The notes beneath the pieces are model-generated. The model was not told the DNA's origin. It saw only the letters and a program-made list of their open reading frames with translations, and searched no databases. From Calditrichia bacterium (GTDB lineage: Bacteria; Calditrichota; Calditrichia; Calditrichales; Calditrichaceae): DNA of 42,030 nt. Of the stretch, positions 7,511 through 42,014 are shown piece after piece (the stretch's first letter is position 1; every line of letters begins with the position of its first letter). The translations under genes and the position numbers were made by a program. Where the stretch lies: assembly GCA_026983775.1 (NCBI GenBank), contig JALSTK010000133.1, forward strand, positions 1 through 42,030, written 5' to 3'.

Positions 7511-8452
7511 TTAAACATTCTGTTCTATAGCCGTATACACATAATCCAACCAATCATCATGGATTACGGAACGACCGTGAATAGCATCGGAATACGCCTT
7601 CTGTAAGGTGGCACACACGGGTCCCATGGAACCGCTCCCGATTTTTCGCCGGTCTATTTCGCGTAAGGCAATTACTTCTGCAGCCGTTCCGGTTACGAAC
7701 ACCTCGTCTGCAATATATAGCTGATCGCGGGTCAAAATCTCTTCCGTTACCCGATACCCAAGGTCTTCGGCCAATGTGATGATGGACTGGCGGGTGATAC
7801 CTTCCAGGACGGAATTGCGGGGTGGGGTAAGAATAACATTATCGCGTACTACAAACAGGTTCTCCCCGGTACATTCGGAAACATTGCCGTTGGGATCAAG
7901 CATAATCGCTTCATCATAACCGGCACGCACGCTTTCGGTTTTGGCCAAAACGGAATTAACATAATTCCCGGCAATCTTGCCCTTGGTCATGGTAATGTTG
8001 GGATGATGTCTGGGGAAAGAGGAAATATTGGCCCGTACGCCACGGTTCAATGCTTCGTCACCGAGATAATTGGTCCATTTCCATACAGCTACACTTATTT
8101 CGACCGTCGTATTATCAACCGAAAGATTCCATCCTCCTTCCTTTATATAAATTAACGGCCGGATGTAGCACTCCTCCAATTCATTCATCTCAATTAATTT
8201 AAGTATCGCGTCATATACTTCCTCCTCGGTGTAGGGCAGTTGGGACAAACCTAAAATATCGGCACTGCGATACATACGCTTAATATGGTCTTTCAAACGG
8301 AACACGGCCGGCCCGTGTGCCGTAGCATACGAGCGGATGCCCTCAAAAATACCGGTTCCGTAATGTAAGGAACTGGTCATGAAATGGATTGTTGCCTTTT
8401 CATAGGGAACAAAGTTTCCTTCCAACCAGACATATTTGGATTCAAATGCCAT
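7511..8452 (-). CDS. ilvE: Branched-chain amino acid aminotransferase
   Basis: A 313-residue class IV (D-amino-acid-transaminase fold) PLP enzyme that makes the last step to valine, leucine and isoleucine from their 2-oxo acids with glutamate. The PLP lysine is K159 in MTKGKIAGNYVNS, the counterpart of K159 in E. coli IlvE. SECTGENLFVV and the early HYGTGIFEGIRSY stretch are family signatures. AGGAG lies ideally before the ATG. It is the last gene of the ten-enzyme operon, 9 bases after cimA. The 180 bases beyond it show no clear intrinsic terminator before the convergent ABC ATPase gene ends, so where the long transcript stops is unclear. Confidence 0.95.
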   Translation of the reverse strand: MAFESKYVWLEGNFVPYEKATIHFMTSSLHYGTGIFEGIRSYATAHGPAVFRLKDHIKRMYRSADILGLSQLPYTEEEVYDAILKLIEMNELEECYIRPLIYIKEGGWNLSVDNTTVEISVAVWKWTNYLGDEALNRGVRANISSFPRHHPNITMTKGKIAGNYVNSVLAKTESVRAGYDEAIMLDPNGNVSECTGENLFVVRDNVILTPPRNSVLEGITRQSIITLAEDLGYRVTEEILTRDQLYIADEVFVTGTAAEVIALREIDRRKIGSGSMGPVCATLQKAYSDAIHGRSVIHDDWLDYVYTAIEQNV

Positions 8453-8461
8453 GATGCACTC

Positions 8462-10054
8462 CTAACTTTGTAAAATTTTTGCGGAAATATGGTTTTTCAT
8501 TATTTTGTAATTCAAACTATCCCCTAACGCTTGTAAACTGGCTTGAATTATATTTTCGGAAACGCCGACCGTAGACCAGCTCCGTTCGCCATCCGTAGAT
8601 TCCACCAGGACGCGTACCTTGGCTGCTGTGCCGTCTCTCTGACCCAGCACGCGCACTTTGTAATCCACCAAATGAATGCTGATGATTTCCGGATAGAAGC
8701 GGGTTAAAGCCTTGCGCAGGGCATGATCCAGAGCATTGACCGGTCCGTCTCCATCGGAAGCGGTATGCTCGATCTCTTCGCCGACTTTTACTTTGAGTAC
8801 GGCTTCGGCATAATCCTTACCGTCATCATCGAGCAGCACGTTCACTTTGGCATAAGTGACACTGAAGTAGGGTTCATAGATATTGAGCTCTTTGCGCAGC
8901 AGTAGTTCAAAAGATCCCTCTGCACCGTCGAATTGTAAGCCTTCATATTCAAGAGATTTGATATATTGCACAAACTGACGACTGAACTCCCGGCCGGTCG
9001 GAATATGCAGGCCCAATTCTTTGGCTTTATAGCGTATATTACTTTGACCGGAGAGGTCCGAAACCAATACGTGTTGTTTATTACCGACCCGGCCGGGTTC
9101 GATATGTTCGTACATGCGGCTGTCTTTCAAAACGGAACTGACATGAATACCGCCTTTGTGAGTAAAAGCCGACTTACCGACGAAGGCGGCACGGGTGTTG
9201 GGAATCAGATTAGCCACCTCATTGACAAAATAAGATAAACTTGTGATCTGTTCCAGTTGAAGGGGCTTGCCGGTCTTCAGATTCATCTTTAATATTAAAT
9301 TGGGGATAATACTACAAAGATTGGCATTACCACAGCGTTCCCCAAAACCATTGATTGTGCCCTGAACGTGCACTGCCCCGGATTCCACGGCAACGAGCGT
9401 ATTGGCCACTGCCAATTCACTATCGTTATGAGCATGGATACCGAGTGGAGTCCGGACTGTCCGATATACATCCTCAAAAGCCGTTCTTATCTGGGATGGA
9501 AGAGAGCCGCCGTTTGTATCGGCCAGGACCAGAACATCCGCCCCGCCGCGTTCAGCCGCCTGTACCATTTTCAAGGCAAAAGCGGAATCATCTCTGTAGC
9601 CGTCAAAGAAATGTTCGGCATCGAAAACGACCCGTCTGCCATGATCTTTAAGAAATTTTACGGAACGATAGATGAGCTCTTCATTCTCTTCATCACTCAG
9701 GTTCAGACTGTAGCGGGAATGGAATTTCCAGGTTTTACCGAAAATAGAGACCACGGGTGTTTCGGCTGCCAGAAGCATATTCAGGTTCTTATCCCTGGCA
9801 ACCTTATCGGGGAATCGGGCCGTGGATCCGAAGGCACAAATCTGAGCTTGTTTCAGCTCCAGATGGGATACCTCTTTGAAATAGGCTTCGTCTTTGGGAT
9901 TACTACCGGGCCAGCCGCCCTCAATGATATCGATTCCGAATTCGTCCAGTTTTTCCGTGATGAGTAATTTGTCGTGAATAGAGAGATTAACCGCTTCGCC
10001 CTGACTACCGTCGCGCAAAGTGGTATCGAATAATTCAATCACTGCTTGTTTCAT
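8462..10054 (-). CDS. cimA: (R)-citramalate synthase
   Basis: This 530-residue enzyme condenses pyruvate and acetyl-CoA to (R)-citramalate, the first step of threonine-independent isoleucine synthesis. The N-terminal HMGL-like TIM barrel has DTTLRDGSQGEA (metal ligand D10), the citramalate-synthase phrase IIEGGWPGSNPKD (43-55), and GIHAHNDSELA with metal ligands H207 and H209. Residues ~400-520 form the LeuA-type dimerisation/regulatory domain (DGPVNALDHALRKAL). It is clearly a different branch from the leuA product in this operon, which has IEAGFPVSSPQQ at the matching place. The start has AGGATAAT upstream. It sits 35 bases after leuD and 9 before ilvE. With leuC, leuD and leuB it converts pyruvate to 2-oxobutanoate, which the ilv enzymes take to isoleucine. 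Confidence 0.95.
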   Translation of the reverse strand: MKQAVIELFDTTLRDGSQGEAVNLSIHDKLLITEKLDEFGIDIIEGGWPGSNPKDEAYFKEVSHLELKQAQICAFGSTARFPDKVARDKNLNMLLAAETPVVSIFGKTWKFHSRYSLNLSDEENEELIYRSVKFLKDHGRRVVFDAEHFFDGYRDDSAFALKMVQAAERGGADVLVLADTNGGSLPSQIRTAFEDVYRTVRTPLGIHAHNDSELAVANTLVAVESGAVHVQGTINGFGERCGNANLCSIIPNLILKMNLKTGKPLQLEQITSLSYFVNEVANLIPNTRAAFVGKSAFTHKGGIHVSSVLKDSRMYEHIEPGRVGNKQHVLVSDLSGQSNIRYKAKELGLHIPTGREFSRQFVQYIKSLEYEGLQFDGAEGSFELLLRKELNIYEPYFSVTYAKVNVLLDDDGKDYAEAVLKVKVGEEIEHTASDGDGPVNALDHALRKALTRFYPEIISIHLVDYKVRVLGQRDGTAAKVRVLVESTDGERSWSTVGVSENIIQASLQALGDSLNYKIMKNHISAKILQS

Positions 10055-10089
10055 AATATTATCCTGTATGGGTATCTTATAAACTTTAA

Positions 10090-10647
10090 TTAGATCATTC
10101 CGCTTTTTCGGGCATATTCAAAAATACCGCCCGCTTCGATAATGGGAAGCACATCGCCCGGAGGTAGCAGCGAATAGCTCTGCCCCGTGTTTTGATTTTT
10201 GAGGGTTAATGAATCCAGGTCTATGGAAAGCGGATCACCGCTTTTGATCTTCTCTTTTAAAACGACTTCTGTTTCTAAGGGAACAATGAAGCCCCCGTCC
10301 ACGGCATTCCTGTAAAAAATGCGGGCATACGATTCGGCTACAACCACCTGCACTCCGGCTTTTTGCAATGCATAGGGAGCGTGTTCGCGGGAAGAGCCGC
10401 AACCGAAGTTGGAGCCGCCGATAATAATTTGAAAATCCGACCGATCATTTTCACCGCTAATGAAAGGGATGTGACCGGTCGGCAAGCCGGCCTTTTCCTC
10501 GGGCACTCCGGATAGAGCATAGCGGCCGTATTTTTTGGATTCTTCCGGATCACTTAAACTATAGACCAGGTGTTCGGCCGGGATGATCTGGTCCGTGTCC
10601 ACATTATCACCTAAAACATAGGCTTTACCTTCTATGATTTTCTGCAT
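10090..10647 (-). CDS. leuD: 3-isopropylmalate/citramalate dehydratase small subunit
   Basis: The 185-residue swivelling subunit partners LeuC to isomerise 2-isopropylmalate to 3-isopropylmalate; in this operon it should also act on citramalate. Visible signatures are GDNVDTDQIIPAEHL (14-28), the substrate loop GGSNFGCGSSREHAPYAL and the FYRNAVDGGF region. Its short length is that of the archaeal/LeuD2-type small subunits rather than the ~200-residue enterobacterial form, and those types commonly accept both substrates. An AAGGAG site lies about 12 bases before the ATG. It follows leuC by 42 bases, one of the larger gaps in the operon. Confidence 0.93.
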   Translation of the reverse strand: MQKIIEGKAYVLGDNVDTDQIIPAEHLVYSLSDPEESKKYGRYALSGVPEEKAGLPTGHIPFISGENDRSDFQIIIGGSNFGCGSSREHAPYALQKAGVQVVVAESYARIFYRNAVDGGFIVPLETEVVLKEKIKSGDPLSIDLDSLTLKNQNTGQSYSLLPPGDVLPIIEAGGIFEYARKSGMI

Positions 10648-10689
10648 GGAATGGTTGACTCCTTATAGTTGTTCGGGCTCTGTTTGTAT

Positions 10690-11988
10690 TTATTGTAAAA
10701 ACTCCCTTGGATCTGTGATGGCCCCCTTAAGGGCGGAGGCGGCCACGGTTAAGGGCGAGGCCAGAAAGATTCCGGCGTTCTTGCTGCCCATCCGTCCCGG
10801 GAAATTACGGTTCGTAGTGGAAATAACCACATCGTTGTCGATCGAGCGGCCGATCGTATCGGCCGGGCCGCCCAGACAGGCAGCGCAGGAAGAGGGAGCC
10901 AGTACACAACCGGAATCGGTTAATATATCAATCAGACGCTGACCTTCGTAGGTTTCGGATTTTAATTTTCGGGCAATCGACGTACTGGCCGGAACGACAA
11001 AAGTCGGTATTACCACCCGTCGGCCTTTGAGTATTTTTGCGGCATGAATAAAATCGGTTAACTTACCTCCGGTACAGGAACCGATATAGGCCCGGGTCAG
11101 AGGAGTACCCTGAACCTTTCGAACCGTATCCCGGTTATCGGGACTATGGGGTTTGGCTACCACAGGTTCCAGTTTTTCAACATCGAACCGATACTTACTG
11201 TGATACCTGGCATCGGGATCGCTTTGTAATATCTCATACGGTTGCTGTGTTTTTCCCTTGAGGTAATCTTCGATAACGGCGTCGGCCGCTATGATGCCGT
11301 TCATGCCGCCTGCTTCCACGGCCATGTTGGTCAGGGTCATGCGTTCATCAACATTCAGGCTTTGAATGGCTTGTCCGCTAAATTCCATAGCCCGGTAGGT
11401 TGCACCGTCTGTGGTAATCTCTCCCAGAACATGAAGAATTAAATCCTTGGCAGTCAGATAGTCCGGCATGTTACCATCGAAGATAAATTGCATCGATTCG
11501 GGAACCTTCTCCCAGATTTTGCCGGTGCCCAGCACGAAGGCCGCATCCGTATTGCCCACACCGGTGGCGAACAGGCCGAACGCACCGGCAGTACAAGTAT
11601 GGGAATCCGTACCGATCAAGACCGTGCCCGGCCGGTTAAATCCCTCTTCGGCCAGGGCGATATGGCAGACTCCCTTATAGCGGGCGGTTCCCACATCGTA
11701 GTAATTCGGCAGATTATAATCGGAGGCAAACTTGCGGAGAATATCCACATTGCGGATAGCATGCTTATCGCTGGTGTAAATGTAGTGATCCGGAAAAATG
11801 ACCAATTTATTTTTATCCCAGATCCTGGCTTTCTCTCCGAATTCATCCTTCCAAATCTGAATCGTGGGGGGACCGCATACGTCATGGGTCATTAACGTAT
11901 CGACATTGAGCCATATATTTTCACCCGGTGTGACCGATTTCTTACGGGCTGCTTTGGCCAATATTTTTTCTGTGATCGTCATGGGCAT
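10690..11988 (-). CDS. leuC: 3-isopropylmalate/citramalate dehydratase large subunit
   Basis: A 432-residue aconitase-superfamily protein carrying the [4Fe-4S] cluster. The three cluster cysteines are C305 (YIGSCTGGK), C368 and C371 (SSCAACLGG). IGTDSHTCTAGAFG around 125-138 and GVGNTDAAF are further family marks. The length and sequence style fit the shorter LeuC2/HacA-like group, which in citramalate-pathway organisms serves both leucine and isoleucine synthesis. MPMTIT offers two ATGs; AGGATTT is closest to the proper spacing from the first, so 11988 is chosen. The gene lies between leuA (13-base gap) and leuD. Confidence 0.93.
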   Translation of the reverse strand: MPMTITEKILAKAARKKSVTPGENIWLNVDTLMTHDVCGPPTIQIWKDEFGEKARIWDKNKLVIFPDHYIYTSDKHAIRNVDILRKFASDYNLPNYYDVGTARYKGVCHIALAEEGFNRPGTVLIGTDSHTCTAGAFGLFATGVGNTDAAFVLGTGKIWEKVPESMQFIFDGNMPDYLTAKDLILHVLGEITTDGATYRAMEFSGQAIQSLNVDERMTLTNMAVEAGGMNGIIAADAVIEDYLKGKTQQPYEILQSDPDARYHSKYRFDVEKLEPVVAKPHSPDNRDTVRKVQGTPLTRAYIGSCTGGKLTDFIHAAKILKGRRVVIPTFVVPASTSIARKLKSETYEGQRLIDILTDSGCVLAPSSCAACLGGPADTIGRSIDNDVVISTTNRNFPGRMGSKNAGIFLASPLTVAASALKGAITDPREFLQ

Positions 11989-12001
11989 AGTGTAAATCCT
12001 T

Positions 12002-13585
12002 TCATACGACGTTGGAATACGTGGTTTTTTGTTTGGCGTCTGTCTGATTACTCAAATCACCTTGTAAACGGTTTATAGCCTGCAGATAGGCAATGGCACT
12101 GGCTTCGATGATATCCGTAGAAACTCCTCTGCCGTTATAAGACTTGTTGCCATTGCGAATGCGCAGAAGAACCTCTCCCATCGCCTTTCGGCCGGAAGTC
12201 ACCGAACGAACCTGGTAGGATTCAATTTTATATTTTGTATTCAGGGCGCGATCAATAGCATTAAATACCGCATCCACCGGGCCATCCCCTGTGGCGGATT
12301 CCTGAATAATTTGCTCTTTAACGGTCATTTTGATGGTGGCCGTGGGAATGGCATGGGTGCCGATATTTATCTGCCAATAATCCAGTACATAGTCCTCTTT
12401 TTTCTTCTTGACCTGATCGCCCATCAAAACACGAAGATCATCATCGAATACTTCCTTCTTTTTATCCGCCAGATCCGTGAATTTTCGGTAGGTTTTATTT
12501 AACTCGTCTTCAGTGAGTTGATAGCCCAGCTCCTGAAGCCTGACTTTCAACCCGTGACGTCCGGAATGTCTTCCGAGGACGATCTTTGTTTTCTGTACGC
12601 CCACATCTTCGGGAGTCATAATTTCATAGGTTTCACGATTTTTAAGCATACCGTCCTGATGGATGCCGGATTCATGAGCAAAGGCATTGGCACCGACAAT
12701 AGCCTTGTTGGGTTGAACGATGATGCCGGTAAAACCGGAAACCATACGGCTGGTGTTGTAAATTTCCTTTGTTTCAATCGCCGTATGAAAGGGCAGGATA
12801 TCTTTGCGCACATTCAGGGCCATCACAAATTCCTCGAGGGAAGCGTTTCCGGCTCTTTCGCCGATTCCGTTGATCGTACATTCCACCTGCCGGGCGCCGG
12901 CCCGAACGGCAGAGATAGAGTTGGCCACTGCCAAGCCCAGGTCATTATGGCAATGGACACTGATAATGGCCCGGTTAATATTTTTTACTCTTTTCCGAAG
13001 CTCCAGGATTTTATTTGCGAATTCTTCCGGGAGCGTATAACCGGTGGTATCGGGGATATTGACCGTGGTGGCCCCGGCTTCGATGGCCGCTTCGATGACT
13101 TCCGATAGATAACCGATATCGGTCCGTCCCGCATCTTCCGCGGAAAATTCCACATCGTCGCAAAAGGTGCGGGCATATCGGACGGCATCAATGGACATCT
13201 GCAGGACAGTCGCCCGCTTTTCCTGAATGGAGGTGCCGTACCGCGGGTCTCCGAATTTTCCCATAATATGATAATCGGATGTACTGGAAAAGGTATGAAT
13301 GCGTTGTTTCGGCGCTTCCCGAACGGCCTCATAGGCTTTTTTAATATCCAGTTCTTTGGCTCTCGAAAGAGCGGCAATGGTGGCATCCACCTCCCCGGCG
13401 ATCATTTTAACCGCTTCGAATTGCTGCGGAGAAGAGACGGGAAATCCGGCTTCGATTACATCCACTTTCAATTTGGCTAATTGATGGGCTATTTCCAGTT
13501 TTTCATAAACATTTAATGAGGCTCCCGGTGATTGTTCGCCATCACGCAAAGTGGTGTCAAAAATAATAATTTGATCTTCCATCAT
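12002..13585 (-). CDS. leuA: 2-isopropylmalate synthase
   Basis: This 527-residue enzyme condenses acetyl-CoA with 2-oxoisovalerate, the committed step to leucine. The TIM barrel shows FDTTLRDGEQSPG (metal ligand D10) and SVHCHNDLGLAVANS with H211 and H213. The subdomain linker contains GIHQDGMLKNRETYEIM. Residues ~395-515 (ATGDGPVDAVFNAIDRA, SGRKAMGEV) form the C-terminal regulatory domain that binds leucine in this family, so feedback inhibition is expected. Two tandem ATGs follow AGGAAAAA; either could start. Eight bases separate it from leuB. Having both this gene and cimA in the operon separates leucine and isoleucine entry steps clearly. Confidence 0.95.
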   Translation of the reverse strand: MMEDQIIIFDTTLRDGEQSPGASLNVYEKLEIAHQLAKLKVDVIEAGFPVSSPQQFEAVKMIAGEVDATIAALSRAKELDIKKAYEAVREAPKQRIHTFSSTSDYHIMGKFGDPRYGTSIQEKRATVLQMSIDAVRYARTFCDDVEFSAEDAGRTDIGYLSEVIEAAIEAGATTVNIPDTTGYTLPEEFANKILELRKRVKNINRAIISVHCHNDLGLAVANSISAVRAGARQVECTINGIGERAGNASLEEFVMALNVRKDILPFHTAIETKEIYNTSRMVSGFTGIIVQPNKAIVGANAFAHESGIHQDGMLKNRETYEIMTPEDVGVQKTKIVLGRHSGRHGLKVRLQELGYQLTEDELNKTYRKFTDLADKKKEVFDDDLRVLMGDQVKKKKEDYVLDYWQINIGTHAIPTATIKMTVKEQIIQESATGDGPVDAVFNAIDRALNTKYKIESYQVRSVTSGRKAMGEVLLRIRNGNKSYNGRGVSTDIIEASAIAYLQAINRLQGDLSNQTDAKQKTTYSNVV

Positions 13586-13593
13586 TTTTTCCT

Positions 13594-14694
13594 TTACAAT
13601 GTCAATTTTTCTGCATACTCACTCTGAAAAATAGTCTCAACATTTTCCAGAATGCTTTCGGTCATTTGCTGAGTATTAACCAGGGTCAGGCCCTTACTGA
13701 ATATATCGGCGGTTCTCCGGCCCTGAGCCAGCGTACGTTCGACGGCTTTTTCAATCAGATCGTCCGCTTTGCTCAGACCGAAGGACAAAGAGAACATCAT
13801 GGCTACGGAACGGATGGCTGCAATGGGATTGGCAATATTCTGCCCTGCAATATCCGGGGCGCTGCCGTGCACCGGCTCATACAATGCGTATTTTTCACCC
13901 ACACTGGCCGAAGGAAGCATGCCCAGGCTACCGGTAATCATGCCGGCAATATCACTTAAAATATCACCAAACAGGTTGGAGGTGAGAATAAGATCAAACT
14001 GTCGCGGTTCACGCACGATCTGCATGGCCGTGTTATCCACATAAAGATTCGTAAGCTCAATATCCGGATAGTCGCCATGTACCTCGGCCACCACATCTCT
14101 CCAGAACTGGGATACTTCCAGTACATTGGCCTTGTCAACCGAAGTGACCCTTTTTTTTCTCAAACGGGCGATTTCGAAAGCCTTACGGGCAATGCGTTCG
14201 ATTTCAGAACGGGCATAGACCATGGTGTTCCAACCTTTTTCCCGGTCATGTCCCCTGGGTTGACCAAAATAAATCCCCCCGGTCAATTCTCTCAGCACAA
14301 CAAAATCGGTTCCGCTGAGTACCTCTTTTTTTAAAGAAGAATCATCAAGTACCGAGTTGTAAACCTTTGCCGGTCGAATATTGGCATAGAGTCCCAGGGA
14401 TTTGCGTAGTTTTAAGAGGGCTGCCTCCGGTTTAAGATGGTGTTCCAGTTTTTCCCATTTATAGCCTCCTACGGCACCTAATAACACCGCATCCGCTTCA
14501 TAGCAGGCCTGAAGAGTTTCATCCGTAAGAGGTGTTCCGTAGGCATCATAAGAACAGCCGCCCATCAGTTGTTCATTGACATCAAAGGATAGACCGAATT
14601 TTTCTCCCACCTGACGCATCACTTGTAACGCAGCCGACATGATTTCCGGCCCGATTCCATCTCCCGGTAAAACGGTTATGTTAGCTTTCATCAT
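13594..14694 (-). CDS. leuB: 3-isopropylmalate dehydrogenase
   Basis: The 366-residue beta-decarboxylating NAD-dependent dehydrogenase oxidises 3-isopropylmalate and, in a citramalate pathway, 3-methylmalate. Signatures are LPGDGIGPEIM at the N-terminus, GGIYFGQPRG, SVDKANVLEVSQFWRDVV with the catalytic lysine, and the cofactor-side VHGSAPDIAGQNIANPIAAI. One base separates the upstream ilvC stop from this ATG, and the ribosome site AAGGA lies inside the ilvC end, so translation is probably coupled. A second ATG directly follows the first. Confidence 0.95.
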   Translation of the reverse strand: MMKANITVLPGDGIGPEIMSAALQVMRQVGEKFGLSFDVNEQLMGGCSYDAYGTPLTDETLQACYEADAVLLGAVGGYKWEKLEHHLKPEAALLKLRKSLGLYANIRPAKVYNSVLDDSSLKKEVLSGTDFVVLRELTGGIYFGQPRGHDREKGWNTMVYARSEIERIARKAFEIARLRKKRVTSVDKANVLEVSQFWRDVVAEVHGDYPDIELTNLYVDNTAMQIVREPRQFDLILTSNLFGDILSDIAGMITGSLGMLPSASVGEKYALYEPVHGSAPDIAGQNIANPIAAIRSVAMMFSLSFGLSKADDLIEKAVERTLAQGRRTADIFSKGLTLVNTQQMTESILENVETIFQSEYAEKLTL

Positions 14695-14695
14695 T

Positions 14696-15694
14696 TTAGG
14701 ATTCCTTCTTTGGTAACCAGGACATCATTTTCCGCAATTCGGCTCCCACCGTTTCGATGGTATGATTGCGGTTGGCTTCCCTTAACTTTTGCAGATTAGG
14801 CTGTCCCTGTTCATTCTCTGCAATCCATTCTTTGGCAAAGGAGCCGTCCTGCACTTCCTTTAAAACCTGGCGCATGGCATCTTTGGACGCTTCGGTGATG
14901 ACCCGTGGCCCGCGGGTCATGCCTCCGTATTCCGCAGTATCGCTTACCGAATAATTCATGCGCGACAAACCCCCTTCATAATAAAGGTCAACGATGAGTT
15001 TCATTTCATGCATGCATTCGAAGTAGGCCAGCTCCGGGGGATAGCCCGCTTCCGTAAGTACTTCGAATCCTGCTTTAATCAATTCGGCGGATCCGCCGCA
15101 TAGTACGGCCTGTTCACCGAAAAGATCGGTTTCCGTTTCATTCTTAAAAGTGGTTTCGATAACACCGGCTCTGGTGCCGCCGATTCCTTTGGCCCAGGCC
15201 AGCGCCATTTCTTTGGCTTTCCCGCTGTAATCCTGTTCAACGGCAATCAGGCAGGGCGTGCCGTTTCCCTGCTGAAAAGTACGTCGTACCAAATGGCCGG
15301 GACTCTTGGGAGCGATCATGATCACGTCGATCTCTTTTGCGGGTACGATTTCTTTGTAGTGGATGTTAAAACCATGCGCAAAGGCCAGTGTATCTCCGGC
15401 CTTCAGGTTGGGCTCGATGGCAGTCCGGTAAACGGACTTTTGGGTTTGATCCGGGAGAAGGACCATGATCACATCGGCCCATTTTACCGCCTCCGCCACC
15501 TCTTTTACGGCAACACCGGCTGTTTCGGCTTCCTGCCAGGAAGCACTTGATTTCCGGAGACCGACGCAGACATTCATTCCACTGTCCTTTAAATTTAAGG
15601 CATGGGCGTGGCCCTGGCTGCCATAGCCCAGCACAGCGATTTTTTTATCTTCTAATAAACTTAGGTTTGCATCCTGATCATAATAGACTTTCAT
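14696..15694 (-). CDS. ilvC: Ketol-acid reductoisomerase, class I
   Basis: This 332-residue enzyme rearranges and reduces acetolactate and acetohydroxybutyrate. An ATG at 15700 also exists, but the GAGGAG site touches it directly; the ATG at 15694 lies six bases away and gives the usual start [14 protein letters not shown], so 15694 is chosen. The Rossmann motif [17 protein letters not shown] begins at residue 23. The cofactor-specificity loop LRKSSASW (46-53) keeps Arg/Lys/Ser residues typical of NADPH-using enzymes. The length is that of class I, not the ~490-residue enterobacterial class II. It is 33 bases after ilvN and nearly touches leuB, so the ilv and leu halves form a single unit. 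Confidence 0.95.
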
Positions 15695-15727
15695 TTTCAT
15701 CTCCTCAAATTGAGTTTGTTAAATTTG

Positions 15728-16237
15728 CTAAGCAGTGAGTTCTTTTTTGGGGTGTTTTAATTGCTCACCCCTTTTTAAGGCTACCGTGCCGGACCTGGCA
15801 ACCTCTTTAATTCCATAAGGCACCAGCACATTCAGGGCGGCAATGATTTTGGCCGGAGGACCGGTAATTTCCAGTGTAATGGATTTATTATTGATATCCA
15901 CAACCACTCCTCGGAAAATGTCACTGATATTTTTTATTTCTTCCAGCGAACCTTTTTGGTAGTTGACGGAAATGAGGATGAGCTCTCTCTCCACACGTTC
16001 CATTTTGCTAAGGTCCACCACCTTAACCGTATCGATAAGCCGGTTGAGTTGTTTCACAACCTGATCGATAATATGGTCGTCACCGGAAGTGACAATCGTC
16101 ATCCTGGATATATCCCGGATTTCAGTCTCACCGATTGAGATACTGTGAATATTAAAACCCTTGGCACTGAACATGGTGGCAATTCGGTCAAAAGCACCGA
16201 ATGTGTTTTCGACTAAAATACTAATGGTATGTTTCAT
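15728..16237 (-). CDS. ilvN: Acetolactate synthase small (regulatory) subunit
   Basis: The 169-residue subunit has an N-terminal ACT domain (KHTISILVENTFGAFDRIATMF..GFNIHSISIGETE, residues 2-38, ending ~75). An ALS-small C-terminal domain (ELILISVNYQK to the end) follows. It activates the large subunit and carries the valine feedback site in this family. ENTFGAFDRI departs from the common ENxPGVLxRV pattern at the loop that usually contacts valine, so feedback sensitivity may be altered; that is inference. It follows ilvB by only two bases, as expected for subunits made in fixed ratio. The gene name ilvN (or ilvH) is by family. Confidence 0.94.
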   Translation of the reverse strand: MKHTISILVENTFGAFDRIATMFSAKGFNIHSISIGETEIRDISRMTIVTSGDDHIIDQVVKQLNRLIDTVKVVDLSKMERVERELILISVNYQKGSLEEIKNISDIFRGVVVDINNKSITLEITGPPAKIIAALNVLVPYGIKEVARSGTVALKRGEQLKHPKKELTA

Positions 16238-16239
16238 AG

Positions 16240-17958
16240 TTAGATCATCCTCTTTGGGTTTAAACGTTCCAGAATCATATTGGATATGGAAGCTCCGGCC
16301 GGCACCATGGGGAATACCATATCTTCTTTTAAAACACGGAATTCAACTAACACCGGACGATCATCAATGGCCAGGATCTTGTCCAAAACGGGATCCACAT
16401 CTTCCATCCGTTCAACGGCAAACGATTGAATTCCCAGCGCTTCTCCGAGTTTAGTGAAATCCGGATTGGCATTGCTCAGATCGGTAAAGCTGTACCGTTC
16501 GTCATGAAATAATTCCTGCCATTGGCGAACCATGCCCAGGAAGCTATTATTTATGATAAAAAATTTAACCGGCACGTTGTAGGCTTTTGCCGTAATCAAT
16601 TCTTGCATATTCATCTGAAAACCGCCGTCACCGCTGATGGAGATGACCGGACGTCCCCCGGACCCGAATGAGGCTCCGATCGCAGCGGGAACCGAAAAGC
16701 CCATGGTGCCCAGTCCTCCGCTGGAAAGGTGGGATCTGGGCCGGGTGAATTGGTAAAACTGAGCAATCCACATCTGGTGCTGACCTACATCGGAAACAAT
16801 AATGGCTTCTCCCTTTGTTTTTTGGGAGAGTTGTTCGATAATATAGGCGGTTCGAATGGCGCCGTTATCCTTTTCATAGGTTAACGGACATTCCTGTTGC
16901 CAGGCACGAATCTGTTCCCACCACTGTTGGGTATCCGGTTTTTGATTCACCTCTGCCATGAGGCCTTCGAGTACATTTTTTACATCACCGACGATGGGCA
17001 GGTCGACCAGAACATTCTTTTCGATGGCTGTGGGGTCTATGTCCACATGAATTTTATAAGCATCAACGGCAAAAGAATCTATTTTCCCGGTAACCCGGTC
17101 ATCGAAACGGGCTCCCAGGGCAACCAACAGATCGCAGTGATTCATAGCCTGATTCGCCCAGTACATGCCGTGCATACCCAGCATGCCCAGAGATTGAGGG
17201 TCTGTTCCGGGAAAGGCACCCAGGCCTTGCAGAGTCATGGTAACCGGCAGATTATTTTTGCGGGCGAATTCAGTCAGCTCTTTGGAAGCTCCGGACATAA
17301 TGACGCCGCCACCCACATAAAGCAGAGGGCGCTTGGCTTTCATTATCTTTTGCGCGGCCTTTTTAATCTGATGCGCATTCCCTTGGTAGGTGGGTTTGTA
17401 TCCGCGAATATGAACCTCTTCAGGGTAGTCAAAAGTCGTTTCATCATTAATCATATCCTTTGGCAGATCCACAACGACCGGACCCGGACGTCCGGAAGAG
17501 GCAATATAAAATGCTTTGTGAATGGCCGGAGCCAGTTCTTTCACATCTCTTACCAGAAAACTATGTTTGGTTACAGGTCGGGTGATGCCGATGATGTCCG
17601 CTTCCTGAAAAGCATCGTTGCCGATTAATTGAGTCGGCACCTGTCCGGTGAAAACGACAATAGGCGATGAATCCATGTAGGCGTTTGTAATTCCGGTTAC
17701 CGTATTGGTTGCTCCGGGCCCGGAGGTGACCAGAACAACCCCGACTTTACCGGTTACACGGGCATAGCCTTCCGCCATATGGGCCGCACCTTGCTCATGT
17801 TTGGCCAGAATATGGGTCAGATAGTCGATATCATAGAGTTCTTCATAGATATTAATGGTCGCTCCGCCCGGGATGCCGAAAATGTATTCCACATTTTCAC
17901 GTTTTAAGGCTTCGAATAAAATTTTAGCCCCGGTGAGTTTTTTCTTTCTTGCGGTCAT
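16240..17958 (-). CDS. ilvB: Acetolactate synthase large (catalytic) subunit
   Basis: This 572-residue thiamine-diphosphate enzyme condenses two pyruvates to acetolactate, or pyruvate with 2-oxobutanoate for isoleucine. The N-terminal Pyr domain has YIFGIPGGATINIYEEL and the catalytic glutamate in AKHEQGAAHMAEGYAR. GPGATNTVTGI, LGARFDDRVTGK and the thiamine-binding stretch SGDGGFQMNMQEL ending in IINN complete the family pattern. It is not a pyruvate oxidase or catabolic acetolactate synthase, because it is followed two bases later by its regulatory subunit. AAGGAT lies at good spacing before the ATG, 20 bases after ilvD. Confidence 0.95.
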   Translation of the reverse strand: MTARKKKLTGAKILFEALKRENVEYIFGIPGGATINIYEELYDIDYLTHILAKHEQGAAHMAEGYARVTGKVGVVLVTSGPGATNTVTGITNAYMDSSPIVVFTGQVPTQLIGNDAFQEADIIGITRPVTKHSFLVRDVKELAPAIHKAFYIASSGRPGPVVVDLPKDMINDETTFDYPEEVHIRGYKPTYQGNAHQIKKAAQKIMKAKRPLLYVGGGVIMSGASKELTEFARKNNLPVTMTLQGLGAFPGTDPQSLGMLGMHGMYWANQAMNHCDLLVALGARFDDRVTGKIDSFAVDAYKIHVDIDPTAIEKNVLVDLPIVGDVKNVLEGLMAEVNQKPDTQQWWEQIRAWQQECPLTYEKDNGAIRTAYIIEQLSQKTKGEAIIVSDVGQHQMWIAQFYQFTRPRSHLSSGGLGTMGFSVPAAIGASFGSGGRPVISISGDGGFQMNMQELITAKAYNVPVKFFIINNSFLGMVRQWQELFHDERYSFTDLSNANPDFTKLGEALGIQSFAVERMEDVDPVLDKILAIDDRPVLVEFRVLKEDMVFPMVPAGASISNMILERLNPKRMI

Positions 17959-17978: not shown

Positions 17979-19667
17979 TTACAAATCTTCAATATTTTTT
18001 AAAATGGCTCCGCTACTGGCCGATGTGACCATATGGGCGTATCGTGCCAGATAACCCCGTTTAATTTTAGGTGTAAACGGTGGAATCCGGGACAACCGCG
18101 CCTGAATCTCCTCTTCGCTTAGTTTTACATGTAAAGATTTGTTGGGAATATCAATGGAAATTATATCGCCATTTTGCAGGGCCGCAATAGGTCCCCGTTC
18201 CGCCGCTTCCGGAGAGACATGTCCGATACAGGCTCCACGCGTGCCTCCGGAAAAACGTCCGTCCGTAATAAGCGCTACTTTATCTCCCAGACCCATACCC
18301 ATGATAGCGCTGGTCGGAGAGAGCATCTCCGGCATACCCGGCCCTCCCTTCGGTCCTTCATAACGAATGACGACCACACTTCCGGCTTGAATTTCGTGTT
18401 TGGCGATAGCTTCCAAAACTTCATCCTGCGAGTTATAAACCTGAGCCGGTCCCTCATGGACCAGCATATTTTTTTCCACGGCTCCTATTTTTACCACGGA
18501 ACCTTGCGGTGCCAGATTGCCAAACAGAACGGCCAGGCCTCCGCTTTTTAAGTAGGGATCCGTATGGGGCCGAATGACCCGCTTGTTTTTTATTTCTGCG
18601 TTCTCAATATTTTCACCGAGAGTTTTGCCGGTCACGGTTTGCACGGAAGTATCCAGGATGTTGTCTACTTGCGACAATTCGTGCAATATGGCAGAGATAC
18701 CGCCGGCCGCATCCACATCTTCCAGATGGACAAAAGGGGTGGCCGGGCTTACCTTACAGATGTACGGTACGTTCGCCGCAATATCATTCAATTGGTGTAA
18801 ATCGAAGTGTATACCCGCTTCATTGGCAATAGCCAGCGTATGCAAAATGGTATTGGTACTGCCGCCCATGGCCATATCCAGGGCGAAAGCGTTACGGAAA
18901 GAGGCCGGAGTTAAAATATCAAGGGGTTTTGTGTCGGTTTTGACCAGTTCCATGAGTTGAGCGGCGGCTTTTCGGGCCAGCTCCAGACGACGTTCATCCA
19001 CGGCTACAATGGTTCCGTTTCCGGGGAGAGCCATGCCAAGGGCTTCCATTAAACAATTCATGGAATTGGCAGTAAACATACCGGAGCAGGAACCGCAGGT
19101 AGGGCAACCGACTTCTTCCAACTCGTGTAACTCGCTGTCATTAATTTCACCGCGGTGATGTTGCCCCACTCCTTCGAATACGGAGATGAGATCCACTACC
19201 TTACCCGATTTAAGATGTCCGGCCTTCATAGGGCCTCCGGAAACAAAAATGGTGGGAATGTTTATCCGTACTGCGGCCATGAGCATTCCGGGAACAATTT
19301 TATCACAATTTGTGATACAAATGATGCCGTCCAGACGGTGAGCTTCTACGACGGTTTCCACGCTGTCTGCAATAAGTTCACGGCTGGCTAAAGAATAGCG
19401 CATGCCGATATGTCCCATGGCAATTCCATCGTCGATACCGATCGTATTAAATTCGAACGGTACACCGCCATTCCGGCGAATCACTTCTTTGACTTCTTTG
19501 CCGAAACCTTGCAGGTGCACATGGCCCGGGATCAGGTCCGTATAGGAATTAACCACTCCGATGAAGGGCTTCTTAAAATCGACTTCTTCTTTGATGACAC
19601 CAGTTGCGCGCAATAGACTACGGTGTGGAGCGCGCTCTACTCCGGATTTGATCATATCGGATCTCAA
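17979..19667 (-). CDS. ilvD: Dihydroxy-acid dehydratase
   Basis: The enzyme dehydrates the dihydroxy acids to the 2-oxo acids of valine and isoleucine. The open frame reaches further upstream to 19703, but a TTG at 19667 is the likely start. AAGGGAG lies six bases before it and the resulting [21 protein letters not shown] is the usual family start, giving 562 residues. Cluster cysteines are C121 ([12 protein letters not shown]) and C194 ([13 protein letters not shown]). The first-cysteine position reads LIPGHVHL without Cys, as in the oxygen-labile [4Fe-4S] E. coli enzyme and unlike [2Fe-2S] types; this favours a low-oxygen lifestyle, as inference. It is the first enzyme gene of the operon and carries the attenuator-like leader immediately upstream. 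The rare TTG start may keep initiation weak and dependent on leader RNA folding. Confidence 0.92.
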
Positions 19668-19719
19668 ATCATACTCCCTTTTTTTTATTTCCCGCCTGAA
19701 CAATCCAGCTCTCTCCCGG

Positions 19720-19832
19720 TCAATCCCGAGGAACCGTTTTGTTATAGAAAGAGTGATATGACTTTGGTATGCTTCGGGATTGAGGTCTGATTAGCCTAGC
19801 AGCAGAATCAGATTAATTATAATAATCCCGAG
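19720..19832 (-). promoter_or_regulatory. Attenuator-like alternative hairpins between leader peptide and ilvD
   Basis: In RNA sense, segment 1 (CUCGGGAUU, 19832-19824) lies inside the Leu-Leu-Gly-Ile codons of the leader ORF. Segment 2 (UCAAUCCCGA, 19783-19774) lies just past its stop. Segment 3 (CUCGGGAUUGA, 19730-19720) lies before ilvD. Segment 2 can pair with segment 1 (8 bp) or with segment 3 (10 bp), but not both. A ribosome stalled on the Val/Ile/Leu codons would cover segment 1 and leave 2:3 to form. No T-run follows segment 3, so this may control ilvD translation or Rho access rather than an intrinsic terminator. The pairings are seen directly; the mechanism is inference. Confidence 0.7.
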
Positions 19833-19940
19833 TAGAAGAACTATGACGTTAGGAAGGATGGTGACAGGTATAGACAAAACATCCCCGTTAATCCGGCGTA
19901 CTGTAGAGACGATGGTATTTTTCAGGGTTATGTTTTGCAT
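19791..19940 (-). CDS. Branched-chain amino acid leader peptide (49 residues)
   Basis: A 49-codon ORF starts with ATG at 19940 and stops with TAA at 19791, 123 bases before the ilvD start. Its last 18 residues are VIVLLLGIIIINLILLLG, of which 15 are Val, Ile or Leu; the N-terminal half adds several more. Such a run directly ahead of a branched-chain biosynthesis operon is the hallmark of a leader peptide that senses charged tRNA-Val, -Ile and -Leu, as ilvL does in E. coli. The start lies about 26 bases from the predicted transcription start; the ribosome site is weak (AAGAATGTAAG). It is not a homologue of IlvL by sequence and has no function beyond being translated, as far as can be seen. 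A short hydrophobic membrane peptide is the alternative, but position and overlapping RNA pairings favour attenuation. Confidence 0.85.
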   Translation of the reverse strand: MQNITLKNTIVSTVRRINGDVLSIPVTILPNVIVLLLGIIIINLILLLG

Positions 19941-19972
19941 AAACTTACATTCTTTTGTAATTAATTCCGGGC

Positions 19973-20001
19973 AATATAAGTAGGGAAAGAATGTTTGTCA
20001 A
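19973..20001 (-). promoter_or_regulatory. Sigma70-type promoter of the ilv-leu operon
   Basis: Reading the minus strand, a perfect -35 TTGACA (20001-19996) and -10 TATATT (19978-19973, five of six consensus bases) are separated by exactly 17 bases. Transcription should begin near 19966, about 26 bases before the leader ATG. No other promoter of this quality is visible between it and ilvD. Confidence 0.8.
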
Positions 20002-20224
20002 GAAAAAATGGGAGATTATTTTAATTTTTTGTTTTATGTAAAACTGCTAAATAGGCGAAACGTTCCCATAGAGGAAGTTGAAAACTTTCGACACTACGTA
20101 TACTGAAGGGAGGGGTGAGTTATGCCAATGCGGTTAGACTTTTTAATGCGCAAAAAATACGGGAGCCTTCCATAACGATGGGTTCGTCTTCTTATAGGAA
20201 AAATTTATCCTTTTATCCTTTCAT

Positions 20225-20737
20225 AGCTTATTTTTGATTCTATCTCATTTTGGTGGATAAGCTAATTATTAAATTTCACAATGATATCGATTCTTCAAAT
20301 GAAAATCCTGCGGGGCATTCGGTTAATCATCCGTCCCTGACGGGACGACCTAAAATACGCTCTTATCATTTCCCGCCAATAAATTGGCGGGCTAATCTCA
20401 GATTTTCCCTCCGGGGAAAGGAATAGACAACCGAAATATAACAGCCTTAAGGCGCTTCAGGATCGTTTACCCGTGAACTTAATACTTTTTACGTACCTTT
20501 ACATTTAACCTGAAATTCCAAAGTACAAATAACAAAAATCAAATAAATCCCAAAAAACAATAACTCAAATATGAAACAACCCTTCATCTTTTGGGTGACT
20601 TATTAAATTTTGGATTTTAGCGCCATTGTTATTTGTTGCTTGTTTTTTGTGATTTCCAAAAGATCACTTTAGCAAATAGGGCTTTTGATAATCGCTCTCG
20701 TATTAATTCACACGATTCGATATAGAGTCGTATTTTA
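20225..20737. repeat. Long direct repeat, copy 1 (~513 bp)
   Basis: This stretch recurs in the same orientation at 21825-22339 with roughly nine of ten bases identical by eye. It contains several perfect hairpins: cgtccctgacgggacg (20332-20347), cccgccaataaattggcggg (20372-20391), tttccctccggggaaa (20404-20419) and gccttaaggc (20444-20453). Its second half has an A-rich arm (~20510-20570) and a T-rich arm (~20600-20665) able to fold as a long imperfect hairpin. No coding potential is evident. It may be an intergenic repeat family of this genome or the end of a mobile unit. Confidence 0.85.
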
Positions 20738-21679: not shown

Positions 21680-21824
21680 CGTATCCTTCGGATACTATTA
21701 TCTTTAAATACAAAATGAACAAAACCATAAAAAATTGTTTCATTCCTTTTATCGGTCTTCCGTTAATATACGGCTTCACAAGAAACCCGGTAAAGCCGAA
21801 AAAATAATCCTCTTTTCCGCTCAG
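21680..21824 (+). repeat. Conserved arm next to the MITE-like element, copy 2
   Basis: Positions 21680-21801 repeat 21086-21207 almost exactly and recur inverted at 41466-41587. The arm starts with hairpin gtatcc-ttc-ggatac (21681-21695). A 30-codon frame beginning MNKTIKNCFI is open in all three copies, but most differences between copies change amino acids and no ribosome site precedes it, so it is not called as a gene. The second long direct repeat begins at 21825. Confidence 0.7.
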
Positions 21825-22339
21825 AGCTTATTTTTGGTTCTATGGCATTTTGTGAGGATATGCTAGTTATTATATTTCACTATGATATCGATTTTTCAAA
21901 TGAAAATCCTGCGGGGGTATTCGGTTAATCATTCGTCCCTGACGGGACGACCCAAAATACACTCTTATTATTTCCCGCCAATAAATTGGCGGGCTAATCT
22001 CAGATTTTCCCTCCGGGAAAAAGAATAGACAACCGAAATATAACAGCTTCAAAGCGCTTCAGGATCGTTTACCCGTGAACTTAATACTTTTTACGCACCT
22101 TTAAATTTAACCTGAAATTCCAAAGTACAAATAACAAAAATCAAATAAATCCCAAAAAACAATAACTCAAATATGAAGCAACTCTTCATCTTTTGGGTGA
22201 CTTATTAAATTTTGGATTTTGGTGCCATTGTTATTTGTTGCTTGTTTTTTGTGATTTCCAAAAGATAACTATAACAATTACGGCTTTTGACAATCGCTCT
22301 CGTATTAATTCACACGATTCGACATAGAGCCATTATTTT
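21825..22339. repeat. Long direct repeat, copy 2 (~515 bp)
   Basis: This is the same unit as 20225-20737 in the same orientation. Hairpins cgtccctgacgggacg (21934-21949) and cccgccaataaattggcggg (21974-21993) are unchanged. The gccttaaggc hairpin of copy 1 reads gcttcaaagc here (22046-22055), where a C-G pair has become T-A. Between the copies lie 1.09 kb holding the GIY-YIG remnant and the MITE-like element. Confidence 0.85.

Positions 22340-41925: not shown

Positions 41926-42014
<89 letters not shown>

Follow-up and report, generated by a model that had tools for sequence, protein, structure and literature searches.

A probable ribosome-mediated attenuator with competing RNA segments ahead of the branched-chain amino acid operon of a Calditrichia bacterium

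How does a bacterium of the class Calditrichia control the expression of its complete set of valine, leucine and isoleucine genes? The window, that is, the whole stretch of 42,030 nucleotides analysed here, comes from a genome of 4.03 Mb in 179 contigs and carries these genes as a ten-gene operon in the order ilvDBNC-leuBACD-cimA-ilvE, with all ten identities assigned by NCBIfam (Table 1). The start codon of ilvD is most likely TTG 19667, because homologues begin at the same L/V/M-RSD and AGGGAG is found at 19679-19674. Taking this codon as the start, 123 nt separate ilvD from the stop codon of a short upstream ORF. The initial annotation had placed this 49-codon minus-strand ORF, ending in a run of Val, Ile and Leu codons, between a sigma70 promoter and ilvD at the head of the ilv-leu-cimA operon, and had read it as the leader peptide of a ribosome-mediated attenuator. 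The ORF, the promoter and the operon were all recovered. Two other features of the window can be recorded here. A dispersed repeat covers part of the DNA 5′ of the promoter (20060-20500); it has about 20 copies of 70-94% identity in the genome and a second copy in the window at 21798-22102. A tRNA gene (Rfam RF00005) lies at the window end (41929-42014, minus strand).

Table 1. Features of the leader region and the operon in the window.
Feature	Coordinates	Strand	Remark
ilvB, ilvN, ilvC, leuB, leuA, leuC, leuD, cimA, ilvE	7511..17958	-	NCBIfam
ilvD, operon gene 1	17979..19667	-	NCBIfam
Shine-Dalgarno AGGGAG of ilvD	19674..19679	-	
3:4 OFF hairpin CGGTTCCTCGG-GATTGA-CCGGG-AGA-GAGCTG, then GATTGTTC (weak U-tract)	19706..19736	-	-12.2 kcal/mol
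Segment 3 TCGGGATTGA	19720..19729	-	2:3 helix
Candidate anti-Shine-Dalgarno CACTCTTT in the 2-3 spacer	19748..19755	-	spacer:RBS duplex -22.3 kcal/mol; not supported as general
Segment 2 TCAATCCCGA, 8 nt past the leader stop	19774..19783	-	pairs with segment 1 or 3
Leader peptide ORF, 49 codons	19791..19940	-	Ile/Leu-rich end conserved in 34 aligned loci
Segment 1 CTCGGGATT, codons Leu-Gly-Ile, within the sensor run	19824..19832	-	in frame in 33/34 loci
Helix P0, 3′ arm ATGTTTTGT, leader codons ~20-23	19874..19882	-	also formed in the predicted fold
Helix P0, 5′ arm GCAAAACAT, from the leader start codon	19930..19938	-	arms match within each species
Sigma70-type promoter TTGACA-17-TATATT	19973..20001	-	11/12 consensus bases matched

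The product of the ORF, MQNITLKNTIVSTVRRINGDVLSIPVTILPNVIVLLLGIIIINLILLLG, has Ile, Leu or Val at 15 of its 18 final residues, the highest count among the window ORFs of 20-120 codons (runner-up 11/18), and shuffling of the 1-kb upstream region did not yield an ORF of this kind in any of 300 trials. No strong Shine-Dalgarno sequence was found for it. At the equivalent site of about 26 of the 34 homologous loci, the promoter pattern TTGACA-17-TA..T is present, and this conservation of a promoter 5′ of the ORF speaks against transcription starting downstream of 19791, which the initial annotation had regarded as fatal to its own reading. The comparison of the ilvD upstream region that it had suggested as a check was made among relatives. 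The nearest IlvD proteins, of 82-74% identity, belong mostly to Calditrichota, with Ignavibacteria/Melioribacter and others next. Of the class, 18 genomes encoding a close IlvD were compared. In two the locus starts at a contig end; in all 16 Calditrichota loci with readable upstream DNA a short ORF rich in Ile, Leu and Val stands just 5′ of ilvD with its Ile/Leu run kept. The same leader design occurs in most of the Ignavibacteria loci examined. Between species, the peptides have unrelated N-terminal halves and keep the end ...LLLGIIIISLI..LG. Peptide conservation is partly structural, because the last Gly and the Ser-Leu pair are apparently maintained through RNA pairing.

The RNA around the leader stop codon can be divided into four segments, and their pairings 1:2, 2:3 and 3:4 are mutually exclusive. 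This architecture is common to 14 of the 16 Calditrichota loci, the other two (L025 and L026, family f5) having diverged leaders. Segment 1 is located 12-21 codons 5′ of the stop, in frame with the leader. The core of segment 2, AATCCCGA, begins a few nucleotides past the stop codon across loci; segment 3 follows at a distance of about 45 nt in the window and about 25-55 nt across loci, with segment 4 directly after it. All three pairings exceed their controls. In the alignment of 34 loci, 257 of 306 cells are paired in 1:2 against 242.9 ± 2.9 when species are permuted (0/5000), and 264 of 306 in 2:3 against 250.6 ± 2.7 (0/5000). Both sides have changed in 9 of the 11 pairs of the 2:3 helix, compared with 3.6 ± 1.1 in shuffles, with 89.3% of cells paired; when the helix is slid by one column, paired cells fall to 56% or less. 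The 3:4 complementarity over all loci has a mean of -10.0 against -8.6 ± 0.39 kcal/mol in controls (0/200). The 3:4 hairpin of the window has 11 pairs, and the energy of this single copy against shuffled 3′ arms is not significant (fraction 0.15). A further helix, P0, joins the leader start codon to a site within the ORF. The two arms vary strongly from species to species but remain complementary within any one of them, GCAAAACAT/ATGTTTTGT being the example of the window; they score 19.9 when matched against 15.6 when taken from mismatched species (0/10000 permutations). A small hairpin at the ORF end, TTAGCC:GGCTAA, also exceeded codon-order shuffles (13.9 against 11.5 ± 0.40; 0/100); it is broken in the window copy and was dropped as a part of the element. 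In Calditrichota family f5, the leaders of L025/L079 and L026 are rich in Ile, Leu and Val, precede ilvD and are without the segment 1-2-3 sequence; their RNA part may have been replaced.

Loci outside this alignment were reached with a covariance model, R1, which was built from the 34 loci and spans the RNA from the stop codon to segment 4, without the leader codons. Over 40 Calditrichota genomes R1 gave 15 matches, all of them at branched-chain genes (13 at ilvD and two at leuB-leuA). The latter two are in genomes with a divergent IlvD (G016 and G019), where the match sits before leuB-leuA. Within the genome of the window, a loose search for the pattern of segments 2 and 3 hit 11 places, mostly unrelated, and R1 hit one. 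Further matches came from genomes reached via Ignavibacteria loci. Comparison of leader sequences left 13 loci outside the training of R1 (L126, L133, L143, L147-L154, L156 and L157), and in every one of them an ORF rich in Ile, Leu and Val ends within 4 nt of the R1 start. The gene downstream is ilvD in ten, leuB-leuA in two and ilvB in one. Two matches depart from this pattern. L144 (G063:C48:11195-11278; E=1.4e-6) lacks a leader ORF, and just downstream no branched-chain gene was found; it may be a decayed copy, and the same genome holds an intact one as well. L145 (G068) is a weak match (E=0.003) and was not placed at a branched-chain gene.

An ORF of product codons between promoter and operon, control codons conserved despite drift, exclusive 1:2, 2:3 and 3:4 pairings and the location of segment 1 within the control codons are features by which an attenuator is recognised. 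Judged from these features of the DNA, the element is very probably a ribosome-mediated attenuator that controls the complete Val/Leu/Ile operon, as the initial annotation had proposed; the covarying exclusive pairings, which were absent from its evidence, now support that proposal. RNA polymerase would start near 19965, and a ribosome would translate the leader. When charged tRNA-Ile or tRNA-Leu is scarce, the ribosome would stall in the run past Leu-Gly-Ile and cover segment 1, leaving segment 2 to pair with segment 3 as an antiterminator, so that the 3:4 hairpin would not form and the operon would be expressed. With Ile and Leu in ample supply, the ribosome would either cover segment 2 while at the stop codon, 8 nt away, or depart and let 1:2 form. 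With segment 2 occupied, segment 3 would fold into 3:4 and expression would be cut. If no ribosome loads, 1:2 would likewise form and 3:4 would be allowed. Helix P0 probably paces the polymerase or limits repeat initiation on the leader.

Which amino acids are sensed can be read from the codons. In the sensing region of the 34 leaders, defined as the codon after Leu-Gly through the stop, Ile makes up 42%, Leu 29% and Val 5% of the composition; Ile and Leu are present in 34/34 leaders and Val is absent from 17/34. CTA, a rare Leu codon, accounts for 33% of the Leu codons in this region against 4.8% in the ilvD genes of the same loci, an approximately sevenfold enrichment. A preference for rare control codons is a hallmark of leader peptides, as in enteric leuL. 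The general sensors are Ile and Leu, not Val. The multivalent control by all three amino acids that had been proposed at the outset thus stands for Ile and Leu and falls for Val as a general sensor; triple sensing of the enteric type does not fit a leader family in which Val is scarce. The window leader has two Val codons directly 5′ of segment 1, and weak Val sensing is possible there because a ribosome stalled at those codons might still cover segment 1.

The output step is less uniform, and sensing seems to be more conserved than output. Terminator scores above -30 occur in 10 of the 34 loci against 1.75 expected, the window copy scoring -32.7. In the window the 3:4 hairpin is followed by GATTGTTC, which is not a proper U-tract, and tracts of seven T are confined to some Ignavibacteria. 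A canonical intrinsic terminator was therefore rejected as the general output, being enriched yet absent in many loci. The other candidate for this step is translational attenuation, in which formation of 3:4 would let the 2-3 spacer pair with the ilvD ribosome-binding site and the 2:3 helix would free that site. Besides the window duplex (Table 1), strong spacer:RBS duplexes are predicted in L023 (-34.6), L024 (-28.8) and L052 (-19.8 kcal/mol). Matched spacer:RBS pairs beat mismatched ones (p=0.0014), with the window's own pairing the best of 34, and the predicted accessibility of the window Shine-Dalgarno falls from 0.70 to 0.29 without 2:3. Against this, the OFF-state accessibility over the 34 loci is that of shuffled spacers (0.349 against 0.362 ± 0.016; window fraction 0.42), the matched-pair signal is weak in Calditrichia alone (p=0.11) and most relatives are without a long helix. 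Shine-Dalgarno sequestration, strong in four loci, was accordingly rejected as a general output, and as the output step it is a possible but rather doubtful reading. We lean towards termination over a translational block: from the modelled hairpins, premature transcription termination may well be what 3:4 brings about.

Explanations that replace attenuation altogether fare much worse. A riboswitch, or a leader bound by a protein, with the ORF not serving as a sensor, would agree with an RNA that is well structured and conserved. Against it, there is no conserved unpaired core, the bases that are conserved fall in the competing arms and the Ile/Leu codons, and the leader region has no match in Rfam, neither at the gathering score nor at E up to 5, which makes this explanation highly improbable. 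Slightly less probable still is that the ORF encodes a small translated membrane protein with one hydrophobic helix, the RNA pairing being incidental. The C-terminus is indeed a typical hydrophobic stretch, but the N-termini are unrelated between species while the position, the Ile/Leu run, the CTA bias and the covarying pairings persist; those pairings run through both codons and UTR, and in three genomes the element stands at leuB-leuA or ilvB. A chance hydrophobic ORF before ilvD, conceivable since short ORFs are common, has a negligible probability, being refuted by the shuffles and by conservation in the 34 aligned and 13 held-out loci.

Under the attenuator reading, covariation evidence extends ribosome-mediated amino-acid attenuation to Calditrichota and Ignavibacteria. 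Nearly 50 orthologous loci are named whose leader genes are easily missed in annotation, and the outcome is an RNA family defined by its sequence, whose segments can be tested. As a tentative and rather speculative extension, it could represent an old branched-chain attenuator family common to both groups and able to move between ilvD, leuB-leuA and ilvB, with one 1-2-3 switch serving different outputs by species (weak or intrinsic termination, or Shine-Dalgarno sequestration) and a covarying start-codon hairpin timing leader translation. Other leaders were observed before ilvD in further phyla. Marinimicrobia (L056, L062, L065, L066, L078, L059 and L064) have a different Ile/Leu-rich leader ending in ..INLLILVIIGLAVQVA and the stop codon, with other candidate pairings (CGCCGTC/GACGGCG and GGTAGG/CCTACC); R1 gives no match in G069, the one Marinimicrobia genome tested. 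A third type, M..LFSLSLIVVVLAVLIIKDQFLVRMAAVRVK and stop, occurs in Chloroflexi (Anaerolineae; L087, L089, L092, L095-L097, L100, L102 and L106-L118); downstream of it, L107 and L113 carry a canonical terminator made of a GC-rich hairpin plus T7.

Among known systems, the enteric leaders ilvL (ilvGMEDA) and trpL follow the 1:2, 2:3, 3:4 logic and have segment 1 among the control codons; ilvL responds to all of Val, Leu and Ile and is closed by a canonical terminator. The Calditrichota leader shares this segment logic; unlike in ilvL, Val is rare in its family. As of 2010, leader peptides were said to have been known from Proteobacteria and Actinobacteria alone, a Firmicutes hisS case being added (PMC2965389). 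No earlier report of leader peptides in Calditrichota, Ignavibacteria or Bacteroidota was found in the open-access literature; the survey of Lopatovskaya et al. (2010, Mol Biol 44:128), the most pertinent one judging by its title, stands outside it, so that a prior prediction in related phyla is possible. The novelty that had been supposed for the leader survives as to Calditrichota and Ignavibacteria and concerns lineage and architecture, not principle, because leader-peptide control of ilvD-first operons has been demonstrated or proposed in the Firmicutes S. aureus and Listeria (PMC5794164, PMC5864092). In S. aureus, a leucine-rich attenuator peptide precedes ilvD (PMC5794164). In both this system and ours, an ilvD-first ilv-leu operon is preceded by a short ORF rich in Ile and Leu, and alternative RNA structures occur; the S. 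aureus peptide has 26 aa and a clear poly-U terminator captured by an antiterminator fold (PMC5794164), whereas the window leader has 49 aa and helix P0, its segments 1-4 compete three ways and a proper U-tract is missing. Listeria Rli60 is comparable, being a ribosome-mediated attenuator before ilvD whose terminator is formed from segments 3 and 4, but its peptide has 13 aa, mutants back its terminator of -17.1 kcal/mol, and it is coupled to CodY (PMC5864092). The Corynebacterium ilvBNC leader and the ilvB-II motif share the three-hairpin logic of anti-antiterminator, antiterminator and terminator and a branched-chain-rich uORF, and differ in a uORF of 15-17 aa before ilvB, a strong terminator followed by uridines and a different sequence (PMC11857589, PMC10272879). 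The actinobacterial LEU element before leuA ties a Leu-rich leader to the Shine-Dalgarno region, in its case through a pseudoknot formed between Leu codons and the Shine-Dalgarno box (PMC1262725). In conclusion, the proposed sensing logic of the Calditrichota leader is as known from these systems, and its lineage and sequence family are, within the literature covered, new.
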